This document shows, one piece after another, positions 21,796 through 34,745 of a stretch of DNA of 64,000 nucleotides. The position numbers were made by a program, and so were the translations under genes. Under the pieces are notes generated by a model, which did no database searches, was not told the DNA's origin, and saw only the letters and a list, made by a program, of their open reading frames with translations. The stretch's first letter is position 1; the number at the start of each line of letters is the position of its first letter. Source of the stretch: Synechococcus sp. JA-2-3B'a(2-13) (GTDB taxonomy: Bacteria; Cyanobacteriota; Cyanobacteriia; Thermostichales; Thermostichaceae); contig NC_007776.1 of NCBI RefSeq assembly GCF_000013225.1, positions 1,641,001 to 1,705,000 of the forward strand, given 5' to 3'.

Positions 21796-22902
21796 ATGTA
21801 CCTTGTCCGCAAGCTCAAGCTAGGCGTCTCAGAGCAACTGCAGCTGTTGAGCAGGGCAGCAGGCGAGCTGTACTCAAAGGTGCTCGTTCACTTTTGGCGG
21901 GTTGTCCGCAAGAAGGGACTGTGGTTGAAACCTTCCACGCTAATGCGGTGGTTTCCCAACGACCCTGAGAATACACTTCATGCTCACAGTGCAGACGCGG
22001 TAGTGCAAAGCTTCTTTGCCTCTTTGAAGTCCTGGCGAGAACGCCGCCAAACCGACCCCAACGCCCGTCCACCTCGACGGCGTCGGTACTATTCCAAAGT
22101 TCAATGGAAGTCTTCAGCCATCCAAGTCGTCAATGGAAAGCTGCGATTGTCGAACGGGAAAGGCAATGAGCCCCTGATGATTAACTGGGCTTGGGACACA
22201 CCTGTTTGGGTAGAGATGGGCTGGGATGGCCAGCAGTATGAGTTGAGAGCTTGCTACAAGGTGGGGGATACGCTGCCGGAAGAAGAGGGGGAAGAGAGCA
22301 ACGTTGCCGCTGTGGATTTGGGTGAGATTCACCCCGCAGTCGCTCATGAGGGGGGACAAACCTACCTTGCCAATGGCAGGCTGCTGCGCTCCAAAAGGCG
22401 CTACCAGAACAAGCTGCAGGGCAAGCTAGCTCGACTCCTGGCGCGCAAAAAGCGGGGTTCTCGGCGGTGGAAGCGGCTAATCCGTTCCAATCGCGTGAGC
22501 GGGACGGAGTCCTTACGCCTGCAGCTCAAGAAGCTACACCACCAAATCCAAGACATTCTGCACAAGCAGACGACCAGACTGGTCTCCACGCTCCACGAGC
22601 GAGGCGTGCAGACAGTTGTGATTGGCGACATTCGGGATATCCGGATGTCTGCCAACTACAACAAGAAAGCGAATCAGAAGATCCACCAGATGTTGCATGG
22701 TCAAGCTCGGCACCAAATCACTTACAAGGCCGAACGGCTGGGGATGAAGGTTGTGCTGCAGGATGAGCAGTACAGCTCTCAGGAGTGTCCTGTTTGTGGG
22801 CAGAGAAACAAGCCCAAAGGTCGTGTGTACAGGTGTGGGTGTGGGTTTGAGTTCCATCGGGACGGGGTGGGTGCAATTAACATTGTTGCTACGCAACGCT
22901 AA
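21796..22902 (+). CDS. tnpB: TnpB-family RNA-guided nuclease (transposon-associated)
   Basis: A 368-residue protein of the group ancestral to Cas12. The N-terminal half is basic; the RuvC-like core contains D174 in AVDLGEIHPAV, the second block VQTVVIGDIRDIR and D356 in FHRDGVGAINIV. Zinc-finger cysteines are C331, C334, C347 and C349. In most TnpB proteins the second block carries the catalytic Glu (IxxEDL); here that position is Gly277, while a Glu (E177) follows the first Asp. The stop region (ATQR) is written by a short repeat also seen elsewhere. Whether the protein is active is unknown. Confidence 0.88.
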   Translation: MYLVRKLKLGVSEQLQLLSRAAGELYSKVLVHFWRVVRKKGLWLKPSTLMRWFPNDPENTLHAHSADAVVQSFFASLKSWRERRQTDPNARPPRRRRYYSKVQWKSSAIQVVNGKLRLSNGKGNEPLMINWAWDTPVWVEMGWDGQQYELRACYKVGDTLPEEEGEESNVAAVDLGEIHPAVAHEGGQTYLANGRLLRSKRRYQNKLQGKLARLLARKKRGSRRWKRLIRSNRVSGTESLRLQLKKLHHQIQDILHKQTTRLVSTLHERGVQTVVIGDIRDIRMSANYNKKANQKIHQMLHGQARHQITYKAERLGMKVVLQDEQYSSQECPVCGQRNKPKGRVYRCGCGFEFHRDGVGAINIVATQR

Positions 22903-24588: not shown

Positions 24589-26337
24589 ATGAGCCCCCGC
24601 AAGCGGCTGTTTTGGTTAATGGCAACTTTTCTCCTTGGAATTCTGGCTGCTTGTGGGCTAGCTAGCGGGCCCAGCCTCCTCAGTCGCCCAGAGACTTCAT
24701 CGCCCGCCCCAGAAGGAGGCGTTGCTGCCTACTACGACGGCAACCCGCAATCGGTAACCATCCGCGATGCCGCCATTGCCTTTGCCATTGCCAGCGGGAT
24801 CACCCAGCCCAGCCAGATTGTCAGCTTTGTCAACACCGTTTTGCGGGTGCAGCCTCCTCTCACCTTGGCTGAGGTGACCACGGCCGACCCCAATCCGGTG
24901 GCCATCTCCGATTTTGATGGGGATGGCACGCCAGGCACCATTCGGGATGCGGCTATTTTGTTTGCCATTGCCACTTTGCAGACCCGCGATGCCAACCGCA
25001 TCAACACCTTCGTCAACACCGTTTTGCGGCTGCAACCTCCCCTCAACCTTACGCCTGAACAAGCGGCCAGATTGCCAGGGCCGGGATTTGTTCCGCCCAC
25101 AGGGCTTCCAACCGCCTCGCCTTCGCCGTCACCACCTGGGATCCCCACCCTGGGGGTGCCGCAGGCGGTTACAGGGCGCTTGACCACCAGTAGCCCTCGG
25201 GATCCCCGTCGTCCTACTCACTTCATTCAGGATTTCCTGCTCAGCGCGCCTGCGGGGCAAACGGTGCGGATCCAGCTTTCCAGTATCGACTTCGATACTT
25301 ACCTTTTCATCGTTAACCAGGCTACCGGCGAGGTGATTGCCGAAAACGACGACTTTGGGGGGAGTACGAATTCCCAGCTCGACTTGGTTGTGCAAGCTGG
25401 AATCAACTACTTGGTGCGGGTTAGCAGTTATGACCCTGGTGCTACGGGTGCTTTCCAGCTTAGGACTGCTCTGGTTGCCCCGGCACCCACTCCTTCTCCC
25501 ACGGCTTCGCCCACTCCCTCTGCTGGCGGCTTCAACATCGAGATTGAATTCATCGACAACAGCCTCAGCCCTTCCCAGCGCAACATCGTTCTGCAAGCGG
25601 CCCGGCGCTGGGAGCAGATCATCACCGGGGATCTGCCTGATGTAACCGTAACTCTGGAGGCTGGCTTCTGCGGAGCTGGTTTCCCCCCGACTCCCCTGGT
25701 CAACCGGCCTGTGGATGATCTCTTGGTTCAAGTAACCGGCGCCCGGCTCCTCTCCAGCCCCCCTGAGAGTGATGGTCCGGGTAAGGCTGTGGGTCAAGCG
25801 GGCCCCTGTGGCCCCCTTCGGCCCGGGATCGGCATCATCCCCTATGCCAGGATAGGGATCGACCCGGCATATCTGGGTCGCTTAGAGGATCAGGGATCCC
25901 TGTTTGACGTTGTCCTGCACGAGCTGGGCCATGCTCTGGGGTTTGGCACCGTCCCCAACTGGCGTCCTCTTCTCCTCAACAGCGGCACCTCCAACCCGCG
26001 CTTTGCCGGCCGGCAGGCCACTGCTGAGTACAACAGCCTGGGCGGATCGGGGAATGTGCCGGTGGAGGTTGAGCCACCTCCCGAAGGTCACTGGCGGCGA
26101 ACCCTAGGGTTGGAGCTGATGACGCCGGTGCTGCCACCGCCACCTGCACGCCCTGCTCTTAGTCGTATTACGGCTGCAGCCATGCAGGACCTGGGGTACC
26201 CAGGCGTTAACCTGGCTGCTGCGGATCCCTATACCCTGCCTCCAGAAGGGCGCCGCCTGCCCCCAGGGGAGGGGCTCTTCCTTGGCAACGACGCTGTTTT
26301 TGGCCCAATTGGGGGTGAGATAGAGCTTTTGCCCTAG
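24589..26337 (+). CDS. Lipoprotein with dockerin-like repeats, PPC domain and HExxH metallopeptidase domain
   Basis: A 582-residue lipoprotein: lipobox LAAC with Cys22, then two ~50-residue repeats (AAYYDGNPQSVTIRDAAIAF and DFDGDGTPGTIRDAAILFAI) that look like dockerin calcium loops, a Pro-rich linker, a pre-peptidase C-terminal-like beta domain (QDFLLSAPAGQTVRIQLSSI), a second Pro/Ser/Thr linker, and a catalytic domain with HELGHALGFGTVPNW (H444, E445, H448). The zinc motif and surrounding sequence resemble leishmanolysin-like M8 or related secreted metallopeptidases. It is predicted to be membrane-anchored outside the cytoplasm. The repeat module is shared with the convergent gene at 26394. 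Confidence 0.8.
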   Translation: MSPRKRLFWLMATFLLGILAACGLASGPSLLSRPETSSPAPEGGVAAYYDGNPQSVTIRDAAIAFAIASGITQPSQIVSFVNTVLRVQPPLTLAEVTTADPNPVAISDFDGDGTPGTIRDAAILFAIATLQTRDANRINTFVNTVLRLQPPLNLTPEQAARLPGPGFVPPTGLPTASPSPSPPGIPTLGVPQAVTGRLTTSSPRDPRRPTHFIQDFLLSAPAGQTVRIQLSSIDFDTYLFIVNQATGEVIAENDDFGGSTNSQLDLVVQAGINYLVRVSSYDPGATGAFQLRTALVAPAPTPSPTASPTPSAGGFNIEIEFIDNSLSPSQRNIVLQAARRWEQIITGDLPDVTVTLEAGFCGAGFPPTPLVNRPVDDLLVQVTGARLLSSPPESDGPGKAVGQAGPCGPLRPGIGIIPYARIGIDPAYLGRLEDQGSLFDVVLHELGHALGFGTVPNWRPLLLNSGTSNPRFAGRQATAEYNSLGGSGNVPVEVEPPPEGHWRRTLGLELMTPVLPPPPARPALSRITAAAMQDLGYPGVNLAAADPYTLPPEGRRLPPGEGLFLGNDAVFGPIGGEIELLP

Positions 26338-26350
26338 CCGAGTACCTTCC

Positions 26351-26373
26351 AAAAAAGGCCCCCTAGCGGGGCC
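26351..26373 (-). terminator. Terminator of the DUF1565 lipoprotein gene
   Basis: On the minus strand GGCCCCGCTAGGGGGCC forms a GC-rich hairpin followed by six T, 20 bases beyond the stop at 26394. Confidence 0.85.
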
Positions 26374-26393
26374 AGCAGGGGGAGGAGTCAAGC

Positions 26394-28037
26394 TTAAAGA
26401 GGAGGGAGAACTTTATGCTTCAGGCAAGGGTTCATAGGGCTGCAGGAAGAAGGATCCCCAGAAGGAGGAGGGAAAGTGTTGGTACCTAAGCTTAGGGTTC
26501 CCGTTCCCGTTGCTGCATTTTTGATGCCAATACCAACCTCATTGGTTCCAGTGCTGAAGGTGGTGCCATCCACGATCACAGAACCGCTGGAGTGGCTAGC
26601 TTTAATCCCAATTGCCCCTAACTGATTGGCTGTGTTACCGTTCAGCTTGATCTTAGAGCTTGGGCCCAACACCTTGGAGCCTCCGACGTTTAGCCAAACG
26701 GCTATGCTTGGTTTAAGGTCGGTTCCACTGGTAATGCTTTCGAGATTCACCGTGCTCGATTGAACAATCACCGGCCCTGCTGAAGCTCCACCTAAAACAC
26801 CCACAACACCTAGACCATTGCTGCCGGTAGATTCAATGGTACTGCCGACTACCTCCAGAGTTGTGTTGTTACCTGCATGCACGATGGCGGCGGTGTAGTC
26901 TTTGTCGCCTTTGATCTGAACCTCCAGCCCTTGCAGCAAGATGGTACCGCCCAGCGTTAGAGCAGTTACTGCAATACACCTGTCACCCAAACTTGTAAAG
27001 GGCGTGCCGCCAGTGCCAAGATCCTTACAGTCAATCTTCATGTTTTCTAAAGATGTGCCCACACCGGCAAGGTTGATGGCTGCTGTAGGAGTAGGCCCAC
27101 CCGGATCCCCGCTGGTAATCTTGAAGCCCTTGAGGCGATAGCCTTTGTTGAGAGTTAGGAGCTTGCCGCTCAAATTGAGGTTAAAGCCACTGGGGCCGAC
27201 CACCGTCACAGATCCTTTAGTCAGGTTAGGGGTGCTGATGTTGCTAGAAACGCCCTGAGTTGCTGCCCTGACAATCGTTACCGTTACATCTGTTCCTCCG
27301 CCGGTGCCTGAGCCGGTAGTGTTGGCAGCAGAGCTGACGATGGGTGTAGTTAGCGCATACTCCACTGTTTGAAATGGCTGAGTAGCCGTACCAGGGTTCG
27401 TATTGTCTCCATACACTGGATCTACGAAGAACTGGATGGTCGAAGGTGTGGGCGTCGGAGTCGGGGTCGGAGTCGGTGTCGGAGTCGGGGTGGGCTCGCT
27501 GAAGAGGGTATCTAAGTTCGGCTGCGTGACGCTGACACCGCTGAGCTTCAGGGTGGTGGCAAGGAAGGGATTGATCTTACTGGCCGTCGGCGGAAGACCT
27601 GTTGAAATTGCCGCAAACAAAACCGCCGCATCCTTGCAGTCCACCACCCCATCGGCAGTAAAGTCCGAAATGGACGGCTTGAGCGGGTTGCCCAACCCCG
27701 TCACGTCGGCAGCCGTAATCGGCCCCACCTTGAGGGTGTTATTGACAAAGTTAACAATCTTCCCGGAGTCGTTGGTGTTGAGGGTGCAGGCGGCAAAAAG
27801 GACTGCCGCATCCTTGATGGTGACTGAGGTCTTTACCCCGTCGTAGTAGAAAGCAATGCTCTCGGAACCCCGAACTGCCGTTTCCGGCGCCTGAGCGGAA
27901 ATGGTCGGCGGAACTTGAGTAACCGTAGGCGGATCCGAAGAGAACGAACAAGCGACCATGCCTCCTGCCAGGGAGGAAGCCAGAAGCAGGGGAGCTAACG
28001 AAGACCGGAAGCCGGGCCTTGAGCCGCGGGAAGCCAT
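26394..28037 (-). CDS. Lipoprotein with dockerin-like repeats, PT linker and beta-helix (DUF1565-like) domain
   Basis: A 547-residue lipoprotein starting at ATG 28037 behind TAGGAGG; lipobox MVAC with Cys30. Two repeats follow (YYDGVKTSVTIKDAAVLFAA and ISDFTADGVVDCKDAAVLFA) that match the module of the peptidase gene at 24589, then a (PT)n linker of about 18 residues. The C-terminal part starts IQFFVDPVYGDNTNPGTATQ, the opening typical of DUF1565 right-handed beta-helix proteins, and continues with irregular beta-helix turns rich in Gly, Asn and Thr. A cell-surface binding or adhesive role is plausible; no enzyme motif is seen. Confidence 0.8.
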   Translation of the reverse strand: MASRGSRPGFRSSLAPLLLASSLAGGMVACSFSSDPPTVTQVPPTISAQAPETAVRGSESIAFYYDGVKTSVTIKDAAVLFAACTLNTNDSGKIVNFVNNTLKVGPITAADVTGLGNPLKPSISDFTADGVVDCKDAAVLFAAISTGLPPTASKINPFLATTLKLSGVSVTQPNLDTLFSEPTPTPTPTPTPTPTPTPSTIQFFVDPVYGDNTNPGTATQPFQTVEYALTTPIVSSAANTTGSGTGGGTDVTVTIVRAATQGVSSNISTPNLTKGSVTVVGPSGFNLNLSGKLLTLNKGYRLKGFKITSGDPGGPTPTAAINLAGVGTSLENMKIDCKDLGTGGTPFTSLGDRCIAVTALTLGGTILLQGLEVQIKGDKDYTAAIVHAGNNTTLEVVGSTIESTGSNGLGVVGVLGGASAGPVIVQSSTVNLESITSGTDLKPSIAVWLNVGGSKVLGPSSKIKLNGNTANQLGAIGIKASHSSGSVIVDGTTFSTGTNEVGIGIKNAATGTGTLSLGTNTFPPPSGDPSSCSPMNPCLKHKVLPPL

Positions 28038-28277: not shown

Positions 28278-28751
28278 TTAGTTCACCAAAATGCCAGGCC
28301 CGAAGTTGAAGTAGGTGGTGCTGCCAGGGTTGGTGGTGTTGTCAAAGGTGCTAAGGGTAGTACCGCCGACCGTAATCGGCCCAGGTGAAGGAATGGCGGG
28401 AGTCACCCGGATCTGGCCGCCAAAGGGAATGGTAAAGGAAGTGGGGAAGGTGGCCACATTCCCAGACACCGAGGTGGAGGTGGCGATCACCGTGCCATCT
28501 GCTTGTCGAATGGTTACCGTGGCCCCTGCCGGCAAGCCCGGGATCGTAATCTGCGGGCCGGCAGGAGTCGGTGTTGGCGTGGGTGTTGGAGTTGGAGTGG
28601 GCGTGGGTGTCGGTGTTGGCGTGGGCGTGGCAACCGTGAGAGGATCCCTTGAGGAAGAGCCACAGGCCACCACTAGCCCGGCCAGAGCAGCAGACAATAC
28701 CAACGAGGCCAGGGAAAAATGCCGCCTATGTGGGAAGTTGCGCTTAGACAT
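28278..28751 (-). CDS. Small lipoprotein with Pro-Thr repeat linker
   Basis: A 157-residue lipoprotein with lipobox LVVAC (Cys30), an uninterrupted (TP)n linker of about 24 residues and a ~90-residue beta-rich C-terminal domain (ITIPGLPAGATVTIRQADGT). No family is recognised. The linker is encoded by a GT-rich hexanucleotide-type tandem repeat (about 28563-28629), which could change length by slippage. It lies 240 bases upstream of the larger lipoprotein gene on the same strand. Confidence 0.75.
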   Translation of the reverse strand: MSKRNFPHRRHFSLASLVLSAALAGLVVACGSSSRDPLTVATPTPTPTPTPTPTPTPTPTPTPAGPQITIPGLPAGATVTIRQADGTVIATSTSVSGNVATFPTSFTIPFGGQIRVTPAIPSPGPITVGGTTLSTFDNTTNPGSTTYFNFGPGILVN

Positions 28752-28877: not shown

Positions 28878-29441
28878 CTAGTCTTGGCTCATAAGGTAGG
28901 TAATGGCGCGGTTTTGCTGCTCAACCACCTGGCGCAGCTCGGCAATGCTGGCCCGCAGCTCAGCGATGGACTCCCTAGTTTGGGCAATGGCTGCAAAAAC
29001 TTGCCCAATCGCCTCTGTGTTTTGGGCAATGACTGCAAAAAGACGCTCAATGGCCTCTGTGTTCTGGACAGTAACTGTGGAAACACGCCCAATGGCCTCT
29101 GCGTTCTGGACAGTAACTGTGGAAACACGCCCAATGGCCTCTGCGTTCTGACCAATGGCTGCAAAGGCTTGCCCAATCGCCTCTGTGTTTTGGGCAATGA
29201 CTGCGAAAAGACGCTCAATGGCCTCTGTGTTCTGGACAGTAACTGTGGAAACACGCCCAATGGCCTCTGCGTTCTGACCAATGGCTGCAAAGGCTTGCCC
29301 AATGGCCTCTGTGTTCTGGGCGGTGGCTGCAAAAAGACGCTCGATGGCTTCTGTATTCCGGGCAGTGGCCTGGGCATTGGCCAGCGTCTGCTGGGCCAGG
29401 ACTTCCAAGATGGCCTCTACCCGCTCCAACCGCTCCGACAT
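28878..29441 (-). CDS. Coiled-coil protein built of 14-residue repeats
   Basis: A 187-residue protein beginning MSERLERVEAILEVLAQQ, then about nine 14-residue units of the type QNTEAIERLFAVIA / QNAEAIGRVSTVTV, i.e. double heptads predicted to form a continuous alpha-helical coiled coil. The final segment IAELRASIAELRQVVEQQNR keeps the heptads. The DNA units (42 bp) are nearly identical, indicating recent duplication. There is no signal peptide or membrane segment. Similar short coiled-coil proteins of unknown function are common in cyanobacteria. Confidence 0.75.
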   Translation of the reverse strand: MSERLERVEAILEVLAQQTLANAQATARNTEAIERLFAATAQNTEAIGQAFAAIGQNAEAIGRVSTVTVQNTEAIERLFAVIAQNTEAIGQAFAAIGQNAEAIGRVSTVTVQNAEAIGRVSTVTVQNTEAIERLFAVIAQNTEAIGQVFAAIAQTRESIAELRASIAELRQVVEQQNRAITYLMSQD

Positions 29442-29947: not shown

Positions 29948-31387
29948 TTATTGAACATTCTGGGCAAGGTTCGGCGGTTGAGGGAAGCTGTTGCCGTTCG
30001 AGATATCGTTGACAAAGTTGGCAATGGGAACTCCTAATTTTATTCCGACGCCTACATTATTGACAGAAGCCTTGAACTCATTGTCTTGAACTAGGTGTCC
30101 GGTGCCAGCGGCAGCCAAAACACCAAATGAATTGGGGGCATCACCAGCCACAAGGATCTTGTTGCCCTTGACAACAGCGCTACTGGAACCAGCATTAAGC
30201 ACAATTGCTGTAGTGTCCGGACCACCACCAGCGTTAACAGAAGACAAGTCAAACTTAGAGTTAAGTACAGTGGTACCAGCAGCAGCAGTGTCTATAGCTC
30301 GAGTGGAATTACCAGCAGTATTTGAACCATCTGACTTGAACTCACTGTCTTTGATGATAACGCCCGGCTTTTGTATGGCTACTGCTGTTGTTTGCACATC
30401 GAACGTGATCTTATTACCCGAGAGCTTCACATTGGCTGCGTTAACGTTGATACACGTATTTCCCGCTGGTGGTTTACACCTAATCGTCGCATTGTTGATG
30501 GATGCAGAGGACTTGTTGATGGTAATATCATTATTGCCTTTGACCTCGATAGAGAAGCCCTCCAACTTCACATTCTCGTTCAGCGTCAACGTGTTCCCGG
30601 CGGGAATAGACAGCTTGTAATTCGTCGGACCCACGATGGTGATAGAACCACCGGGCACAGTAGTACCCAGGGCGGCAGTCAGACTTTGCGTAACCGGCGC
30701 CGGCGCTACCACCTGAATCGTTACGTTCTCGCCCTGCTGCAGGAGCGGCACCAGCTTGCTCTGATACGGGTCAGCCCCCACCTTCAGCACCCCTTCAAAG
30801 GTCTTCCACGGCGCTGCCGCCGTCCCTGGGTTGCTGTCGCTGCCGTTCACCGGATCCAGGAAGAAGGTGTTCGGCACCGGAGTCACCGTCACCGGCACAT
30901 CCACACTCCCCAGCCCCGTCCCGCTGAAGGTGATGTTTTGCGTCTGACCCACCGCCGTCAGCGGCGCCGTGAACTGCACCGGCTGGTTCACGTTGAAGTT
31001 GCTGCTGTCAAAGGTCAAGCTCGCGGGGGAAATGCTCCAACCTGTTGGCCCCGTCACCGTCACCGTCTTGATCCCGCTCGGATCCTGGGCTAGCTTGACG
31101 TTGATAGTTTTGACGGAGCTGGCAGTCGCATTGGGAATCGAGGTAGGCGAAACCACAATCAAAGACGCAGGCGTCGGAGTTGGGGTAGGAGCTGGAGTCG
31201 GAGTTGGAGCTGGAGTCGGAGTTGGAGCCGGCGGCGGAGGTGGAGGAGGTGGAGGAGGCACAGGCACCACAGAGCTGGCACTGTCTCCGCCACAGCCTGT
31301 CAAGATCAGGGGCAGAAGCACCACGGCAGACGCCAAGGTTAGAGAACCAAGTGACTTCAACAGCCACTTATGCGTTTTTCCGTTCAT
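29948..31387 (-). CDS. Lipoprotein with Pro-rich linker and beta-helix (DUF1565-like) domain
   Basis: A 479-residue lipoprotein from ATG 31387, which follows AGAGGAG; an ATG six codons earlier is less likely. Lipobox LTGC has Cys32. A poly-Pro then (PTPA)n linker spans about 45-80, followed by an Ig-like beta segment (VKLAQDPSGIKTVTVTGPTG) and a DUF1565-type beta-helix that opens NTFFLDPVNGSDSNPGTAAA. It resembles the gene at 26394 in the C-terminal half but lacks the dockerin-like repeats. Probably a surface-exposed paralogue; ligand unknown. Confidence 0.78.
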   Translation of the reverse strand: MNGKTHKWLLKSLGSLTLASAVVLLPLILTGCGGDSASSVVPVPPPPPPPPPPAPTPTPAPTPTPAPTPTPTPASLIVVSPTSIPNATASSVKTINVKLAQDPSGIKTVTVTGPTGWSISPASLTFDSSNFNVNQPVQFTAPLTAVGQTQNITFSGTGLGSVDVPVTVTPVPNTFFLDPVNGSDSNPGTAAAPWKTFEGVLKVGADPYQSKLVPLLQQGENVTIQVVAPAPVTQSLTAALGTTVPGGSITIVGPTNYKLSIPAGNTLTLNENVKLEGFSIEVKGNNDITINKSSASINNATIRCKPPAGNTCINVNAANVKLSGNKITFDVQTTAVAIQKPGVIIKDSEFKSDGSNTAGNSTRAIDTAAAGTTVLNSKFDLSSVNAGGGPDTTAIVLNAGSSSAVVKGNKILVAGDAPNSFGVLAAAGTGHLVQDNEFKASVNNVGVGIKLGVPIANFVNDISNGNSFPQPPNLAQNVQ

Positions 31388-31434
31388 TTTTCTCCTCTTA
31401 ACCAAAAAAGTAGGGTTCGGCTGAACACTTCCCT

Positions 31435-32255: not shown

Positions 32256-32657
32256 GGGTGGCCCAAGGGGGTGTTCGAGCGCTCCGCGCTGCTGAGGCCC
32301 TCACCCAGAGGGAGAGGAGCATGCCTCTAACCCCCAAAACCCTGAACTTTGCTGAATTTACTGAGCTTTAGGCGGTTTGGCAAAAGTCATTGAGAGGGAT
32401 ATAGTAGACCAAGTTTCCCCCTGATCCTTGAGTCCACCGCAACGGTTGCCGGGAAGTGAAGGGGGAAAGCGCTCGGGGGGTATTCCTCAGGGCTTTGCGG
32501 GATACCGCCTTCCTGCTTGGACTCCGTCCCGCTAACGCGAACAGAGATAGGCAGGATGCGATCGCTTCTTTCCTGAACCATGTTCAGGAGAGTTCAGCGT
32601 GAATGTATCAGAATTGGCAGTGGTAGGATTTCCTTATTCTGTAGTGCTTCAGCAACC
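32256..32657. other. 402-base gap with repeats and cassette leader
   Basis: No protein gene is evident. It holds a second partial CCCTCACCC...GGGAGAGG repeat near 32299-32320, the 26-bp repeat at 32519-32544, one HIP1 octamer at 32558-32565 and, from about 32617, the leader that precedes every copy of the coiled-coil cassette. Confidence 0.6.
32519..32544 (-). repeat. 26-bp dispersed repeat, intergenic copy
   Basis: Identical to 22976-23001 and inverted relative to 6332-6357. Confidence 0.85.
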
Positions 32658-33017
32658 ATGACCCCTGAGCAAGAGCAGTGGCTGATTCAAGCCATCCAGG
32701 AGCTAAAAGCCTCCCAGAGAGAATTGCAAGCCTCCCAAAGAGAATTGCAGGCCGCTCAGCAGGAGCTGCGCCTTGTCCAACAAAACCAGCAGGTTTTGAT
32801 TCAAGAGCTGCGGGAAGGGCAGGCGATGTTGGCGCAGTTCTTTCGCGAGTCAATGGATCGGTTTGATGAGCGCACCCGGGCTATTGAACGGCGCACGGAA
32901 GCTGTGGAACGGCGCACAGAAGCACTGGAACGGCGCACCGACCAGATGGCGGAAGAGATGAGGGAGATCCGGCAGGAGATTCGGGATCTGCGCCGCGATT
33001 TTTTGGAACGGCGTTAG
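32658..33017 (+). CDS. Small coiled-coil protein, cassette copy 1
   Basis: A 119-residue protein starting MTPEQEQWLIQAIQEL. Heptads ELKASQR, ELQASQR and ELQAAQQ form the N-terminal coil, followed by the constant block QQVLIQELREGQAMLAQFF, three ERRTEA-type heptads and the end EIRDLRRDFLERR. The whole chain is predicted to be one long helix. Codons 1-26 of the longer open frame belong to the conserved leader, not the protein. It is the first of four paralogues between 32658 and 35128. Function is unknown. Confidence 0.75.
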   Translation: MTPEQEQWLIQAIQELKASQRELQASQRELQAAQQELRLVQQNQQVLIQELREGQAMLAQFFRESMDRFDERTRAIERRTEAVERRTEALERRTDQMAEEMREIRQEIRDLRRDFLERR

Positions 33018-34241: not shown

Positions 34242-34343
34242 TTGAGGTTTTGGATTTGGATCCCTTGCCCCCGATCCCTCTCCCAGGAGGAGAGAAGAGT
34301 TAGTGGTGGTAGGATTTCCTTATTCTGTAGTGTTTCAGTAACC

Positions 34344-34745
34344 ATGACGCCCGAGCAAGAACAGTGGCTGATTCAAGCCATCCAAGAGTTGCAAGCCTCC
34401 CAAAGAGAGTTGCAAGCCTCCCAAAGAGAGTTGCAAGCCTCCCAAAGAGAGTTGCAAGCCTCCCAAAGAGAGCTGCAAGCCTCCCAAAAAGAATTGCAAG
34501 CTGCCCAGCAGGAGCTGCGTCTTGTCCAGCAAAACCAGCAGGTTTTGATTCAAGAGCTGCGGGAGGGACAGGCGATGCTGGCGCAGTTCTTTCGCGAGTC
34601 AATGGATCGGTTTGACGAGCGTACTCGGGCCATCGAACGCCGCACAGAAGCACTGGAACGGCGCACCGACCAGATGGCGGAGGAGATGAGAGAGATCCGG
34701 CAAGAGATTCGGGATCTGCGCCGCGATTTTTTGGAACGGCGGTAG
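34344..34745 (+). CDS. Small coiled-coil protein, cassette copy 3 (expanded)
   Basis: A 133-residue paralogue with six N-terminal heptads: four ELQASQR, one ELQASQK and one ELQAAQQ. The constant block and the C-terminal DLRRDFLERR are as in the other copies, but it has two rather than three ERRTEA-type heptads. It starts about 100 bases after tRNA-Ala behind the same leader as copy 1. Confidence 0.75.
   Translation: MTPEQEQWLIQAIQELQASQRELQASQRELQASQRELQASQRELQASQKELQAAQQELRLVQQNQQVLIQELREGQAMLAQFFRESMDRFDERTRAIERRTEALERRTDQMAEEMREIRQEIRDLRRDFLERR
34386..34511 (+). repeat. 21-bp tandem repeats in coiled-coil cassette copy 3
   Basis: Six units of 21 bp, each encoding a heptad of the ELQASQR type; the first four are nearly identical. 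The number of units differs among the four paralogues (3, 1, 6 and 1), pointing to slippage or unequal exchange. Confidence 0.9.

Follow-up and report, generated by a model that had tools for sequence, protein, structure and literature searches.

A tandem module directly behind the lipobox is shared by diverse surface-type lipoproteins of one cyanobacterial family

Two convergent lipoprotein genes and their neighbourhood

The stretch of DNA analysed here, referred to as the window, comprises 64,000 nucleotides of Synechococcus sp. JA-2-3B'a(2-13) (NC_007776.1, positions 1,641,001 to 1,705,000), and its ORF list contains two convergently oriented lipoprotein genes, p1 on the plus strand (24589..26337, 582 aa) and p2 on the minus strand (26394..28037 from an ATG start; a TTG start would reach 28151). 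In p1, the lipobox LAAC (Cys22) and a tether are followed by a tandem module (24724..25080, +, aa 46-164), a PPC-like beta domain (25243..25422, +; Pfam PPC E 0.034, below the cut-off) and a HExxH metalloprotease domain (25525..26334, +). The order in p2 is lipobox MVAC, tether, tandem module (27504..27854, -, supported by unit comparison, the family profile and an AlphaFold model), PT-repeat linker and a beta-helix-like passenger. In both proteins the tether of 22-30 aa separates the lipobox from two tandem units, which in p1 span 24724-24900 (unit 1, +) and 24901-25080 (unit 2, +).

The initial annotation had assigned a HExxH peptidase to one protein and a beta-helix to the other. The HExxH motif was confirmed as HELGH at aa 444-448 of p1, which lies within the string HELGHALGF and is accompanied by weak M8/M10/NF038122 matches; a later conserved HWR..LG.ELM suggests a metalloprotease of the leishmanolysin-like type. 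The beta-helix of p2 is plausible, the family evidence behind it being weak, and for the passengers of both p1 and p2 this evidence lies below the curated cut-offs of Pfam and NCBIfam.

Further lipoprotein genes lie on the minus strand next to this pair. The product of p3 (28278..28751, -) has no module and carries a PT linker and a small terminal domain of which the cluster has further examples, and p4 (29948..31405, -) encodes a beta-helix-type lipoprotein, also without the module, whose passenger is akin to that of a module-bearing protein of the sister strain G294 (L030:5203-7326; 31% over 403 aa). Short coiled-coil repeat proteins are encoded at 28878-29441, 32580-33017 and 34242-34745, and their sister-strain relatives differ in length. 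A TnpB/OrfB-like gene (21796-22902, +) is located near the cluster, and the syntenic piece of G294 is identical over 152 aa.

The shared module is statistically real and internally duplicated

When the units of p1 and p2 were compared pairwise, five of the six pairs scored 61-113 against shuffled maxima of 42-55, with none of 2000 shuffles reaching the observed value; the sixth pair (p1 unit 1 versus p2 unit 2) scored 45, which 2 of 2000 shuffles reached. With the p1 module as the sole query against the whole source genome (one contig, 3,046,682 bases), p2 was matched at E = 9.6e-17, and copies in other genomes were matched at up to 7.1e-20, the ortholog aside. The family profile returned the p1 and p2 copies at 1.8e-42 and 6.5e-41, respectively, both copies being part of that profile. 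The shuffle tests and profile searches together confirmed the claim of the initial annotation that both proteins carry a common tandem module, about 120 aa long, just behind the lipobox. The two unit profiles are themselves homologous (hhalign 97%, E 3.6e-11), and by this comparison the module is an internal duplication.

The units are 50-60 aa long, contain an extra helix and exceed dockerin repeats in length. Across 19 copies, loop 2, which lies in unit 2, follows the pattern D-[FL]-[NTD]-x-[DN]-G and closes with a D after 12 or 13 residues. D1, G6 and the closing D are present in all 19, and D5 in 18; the strict Dx[DN]xDG motif is found in 13, with six departing from it, and 12 of the 19 carry one extra residue. 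Loop 2 of p2 (27630..27665, -; DFTADGVVDCKD) has the canonical 12-residue EF/dockerin spacing D1-T3-D5-D9-D12, and that of p1 (24910..24948, +; DFDGDGTPGTIRD) is a 13-residue variant of the Dx[DN]xDG loop. From these ligand positions, unit 2 is likely to bind calcium through loop 2. Loop 1 mostly reads Y-[YF]-D-G, and no copy (0/19) has an acidic first position. An AlphaFold model of the p2 module built from ten sequences (mean pLDDT 82, pTM 0.81) has the topology hairpin-helix-helix followed by loop-helix-helix, with loop 1 modelled as a beta-hairpin. Modelling full-length p1 on the basis of two sequences gave a poor result (pLDDT 44), which was left out of account. Of the two dockerin-like calcium loops proposed in the initial annotation, loop 2 is thus retained for its Asp-rich canonical positions, and loop 1 is not, for want of an acidic first ligand and given its modelled hairpin.

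The module is restricted to one lineage

We searched nine genomes of the order, the source genome and G291-G298, with the family profile. Copies were found in the source genome (two), its sister strain G294 (four), G296 (one), G298 (one) and G293 (11, one of them extending to the end of a contig). G293 is the MAG Synechococcaceae cyanobacterium SM2_3_2, and it has in addition a broken copy (G293:C304:135-1043; L076, L077) that lies in two pieces, perhaps through a frameshift or an assembly error. The same search gave no copy in G291, G292, G295 or G297, and since G295 and G297 share a genus with module carriers, the function of the module is dispensable. No other convincing copy came from two cyanobacterial samples, one of 291 genomes and one of 386. 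One hit in G129 (E 4.4e-4) was rejected, as the match falls, in frame, within a coiled-coil-rich protein of 408 aa that has neither a lipobox nor DG loops, and two weak places in the source genome (899239 and 795445) were dropped because they are absent from the profile search list.

When GTDB contigs were scanned for patterns taken from the p1 module, no relative was returned, and type B patterns run against 84,980 species genomes found SM2_3_2 only; such scans reach close relatives only, and wider absence is not proven by them. IMG/VR and plasmids held no copies, Pfam and NCBIfam scans gave the module no name, and literature searches found no paper on it. The profile search with the repeat, as proposed in the initial annotation, recovered copies from one lineage: among the genomes searched, the module was found only in the window's own, hot-spring-type cyanobacterial family. 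The module is real, lineage-restricted and unnamed in Pfam and NCBIfam.

One head on many passengers

In all 19 copies examined, the module immediately follows a lipobox-bearing signal peptide; the lipobox was recognised by pattern in 17 and by reading in the other two (LKAC and AMGC). The tether measures 18-31 aa in 17 copies and about 50 aa (range to 51) in the two longest proteins, and Pro/Thr-rich linkers often join the module to its passenger. Besides the protease of p1, the passengers include Exo_endo_phos, 5'-nucleotidase C, fasciclin with Ig-like domains, a choice-of-anchor/NHL propeller, beta-helix and VWD with LRR. As judged from domain content, one module is reused on many unrelated passengers of surface-type lipoproteins.

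Relatives of the p1 protease domain are present in all nine genomes of the order, and those outside p1 and its two counterparts have no module. A lipobox is visible in eight of the nine module-less relatives taken in full, so that most genomes of the order have the enzyme as a lipoprotein without the module. The module is therefore an optional, added cassette, and lipidation does not require it. The p1 counterpart in SM2_3_2 is 53% identical; in the G294 ortholog most of the linker and PPC region is missing, 53 of the 147 residues being aligned. Between the source genome and G294, the p2 module is 96% identical and its passenger 49%, indicating separate histories of head and passenger. We considered strong constraint as the cause of the 96% identity and rejected it, because dS is low in the p2 module (0.093), compared with 0.29 in the neighbouring methyltransferase and a saturated value of about 2.2 in the passenger. 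Such a dS is better explained by recent exchange of this DNA than by unusual constraint. In the module tree, the p1 modules of the source genome and G294 cluster among those of type A, and the SM2_3_2 counterpart is of type B. Yet p1 keeps B-type landmarks, namely the 13-residue loop and the LPGPG end, and is therefore intermediate in sequence.

Search for a partner and possible roles

The initial annotation had envisaged a cohesin/dockerin-like assembly on the cell surface. The cohesin model PF00963, which gave matches in two control genomes and which a very divergent cohesin could escape, had no match at E <= 1 in the nine genomes of the order. Neither a cohesin partner in these genomes nor a dockerin whose loops are both of the calcium type is supported, and membership of the module in the cohesin-dockerin system is likewise unsupported. 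The annotation had set against its own proposal an isolated, lineage-specific linker without partners or calcium binding; lineage restriction and the absence of a known partner were indeed observed, whereas loop 2 is predicted to bind calcium.

A Pfam-significant Dockerin_1 protein, distinct from the module proteins, occurs once in each genome of the order (twice in G291), with the domain at the N-terminal side of a protein that has a carboxypeptidase-regulatory-like region; in the source genome this true Dockerin_1 domain lies at G000:C1:1091088-1091255 (L049). It is an orphan dockerin conserved across the order, its cohesin undetected.

The small terminal domain of p3 (ITIPGLPAGATV...FNFGP) is found on PT-linker lipoproteins at 28278-28751 (-) and in L079, L081, L083, L080 and L082. 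It is limited to three genomes, those with type A modules, and partly shares their gene clusters, which raised the idea that it is the partner of these modules. We give this idea hardly any credence, since the three genomes are related by descent and the domain also sits C-terminally on lipoproteins with and without the module, so that gene linkage explains the co-occurrence equally well; the distribution is a lead and does not amount to a sign of binding.

The explanation that we tentatively favour is that the module, close to the membrane and stabilised by calcium, would serve in docking or positioning, with a candidate common envelope partner. In unit 2, loop 2, of the dockerin/EF-hand type, and its helix would bind one calcium ion, and in unit 1 a beta-hairpin would replace the calcium loop. 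Calcium binding would lock the module fold outside the cytoplasm, and the stabilised head may then contact a common envelope component, bringing a variety of surface enzymes and adhesin-like proteins to one common site. Such a head would be dockerin-like in principle, but its partner would be a non-cohesin. An extended version, in which a family docking code with a single envelope receptor and a calcium-locked half-dockerin gathers enzymes and adhesins in one surface assembly, seems unlikely to us.

Docking is possible, and a role as a spacer or stalk is nearly as likely. A calcium-rigidified stalk would simply lift the passenger off the membrane without a specific partner, as would fit a module that always stands between anchor tether and passenger, is lineage-restricted and freely shuffled, has no detected cohesin and is missing from lipoprotein relatives of the same enzyme. 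However, a spacer would hardly seem to need a compact fold of two duplicated units with well-conserved positions, and the PT-rich linkers already act as spacers in the same proteins. To our knowledge, the organisation of cyanobacterial envelope lipoproteins is poorly known. Whichever role applies, a head shared by many passengers offers a handle for seeking a common partner, and the module provides a label for proteins whose N-terminus Pfam and NCBIfam do not recognise.

Comparison with dockerins, EF-hands and other known systems

The p1 passenger resembles NF038122 'LGF'/leishmanolysin-like metalloproteases in its HELGHALGF core and the later conserved H..LG.ELM, but its matches are below curated cut-offs, and the likeness concerns the passenger, not the module. 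For the module itself, the closest known system is dockerin type I (PF00404), with which it shares the tandem repeat, the D-x-[NDT]-x-D-G....D loop with a helix behind it that begins D-[LA]-[AG], and the occurrence on extracellular proteins with diverse passengers. The best Dockerin_1 match among 15 modules had E 0.0065, and none exceeded the curated cut-off; the sister copy of p2 has a sub-threshold match at loop 2 (10.3 bits). Aligned with the order's own dockerins, the module gave a 22-column match (hhalign 54%, E 1.3e-4), and weak PDB sequence matches to the CelS dockerin, secretagogin and CIB1 fell at the same columns. In these alignments nothing beyond loop 2 and the helix after it (20-30 residues) resembles a dockerin or EF-hand.

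These weak matches of loop 2 and its helix in several members could also be taken to mean that the module is a true dockerin docking to a divergent surface cohesin. We regard this as highly improbable: all the matches are sub-cut-off and cover one loop only, and the cohesin search in the nine genomes was negative at E <= 1. In contrast to dockerin type I, the module has a calcium-type loop in unit 2 only, its 50-60-aa units include an extra helix, and it lies N-terminally, beside the lipid anchor, with no cohesin detected.

The Dx[DN]xDG calcium loop occurs in many folds (PMC3123361), so its presence is not enough to assign the module to a fold. Compared with such loops in general, its context is hairpin-helix-helix and loop-helix-helix, for which Foldseek and VIA-align of the module model against PDB and viral folds gave no clear match of any kind; dockerins and EF-hands were not among the fold matches listed, which proves nothing by itself. 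Lying outside the family definition of dockerin, the module may nevertheless work like half of one.
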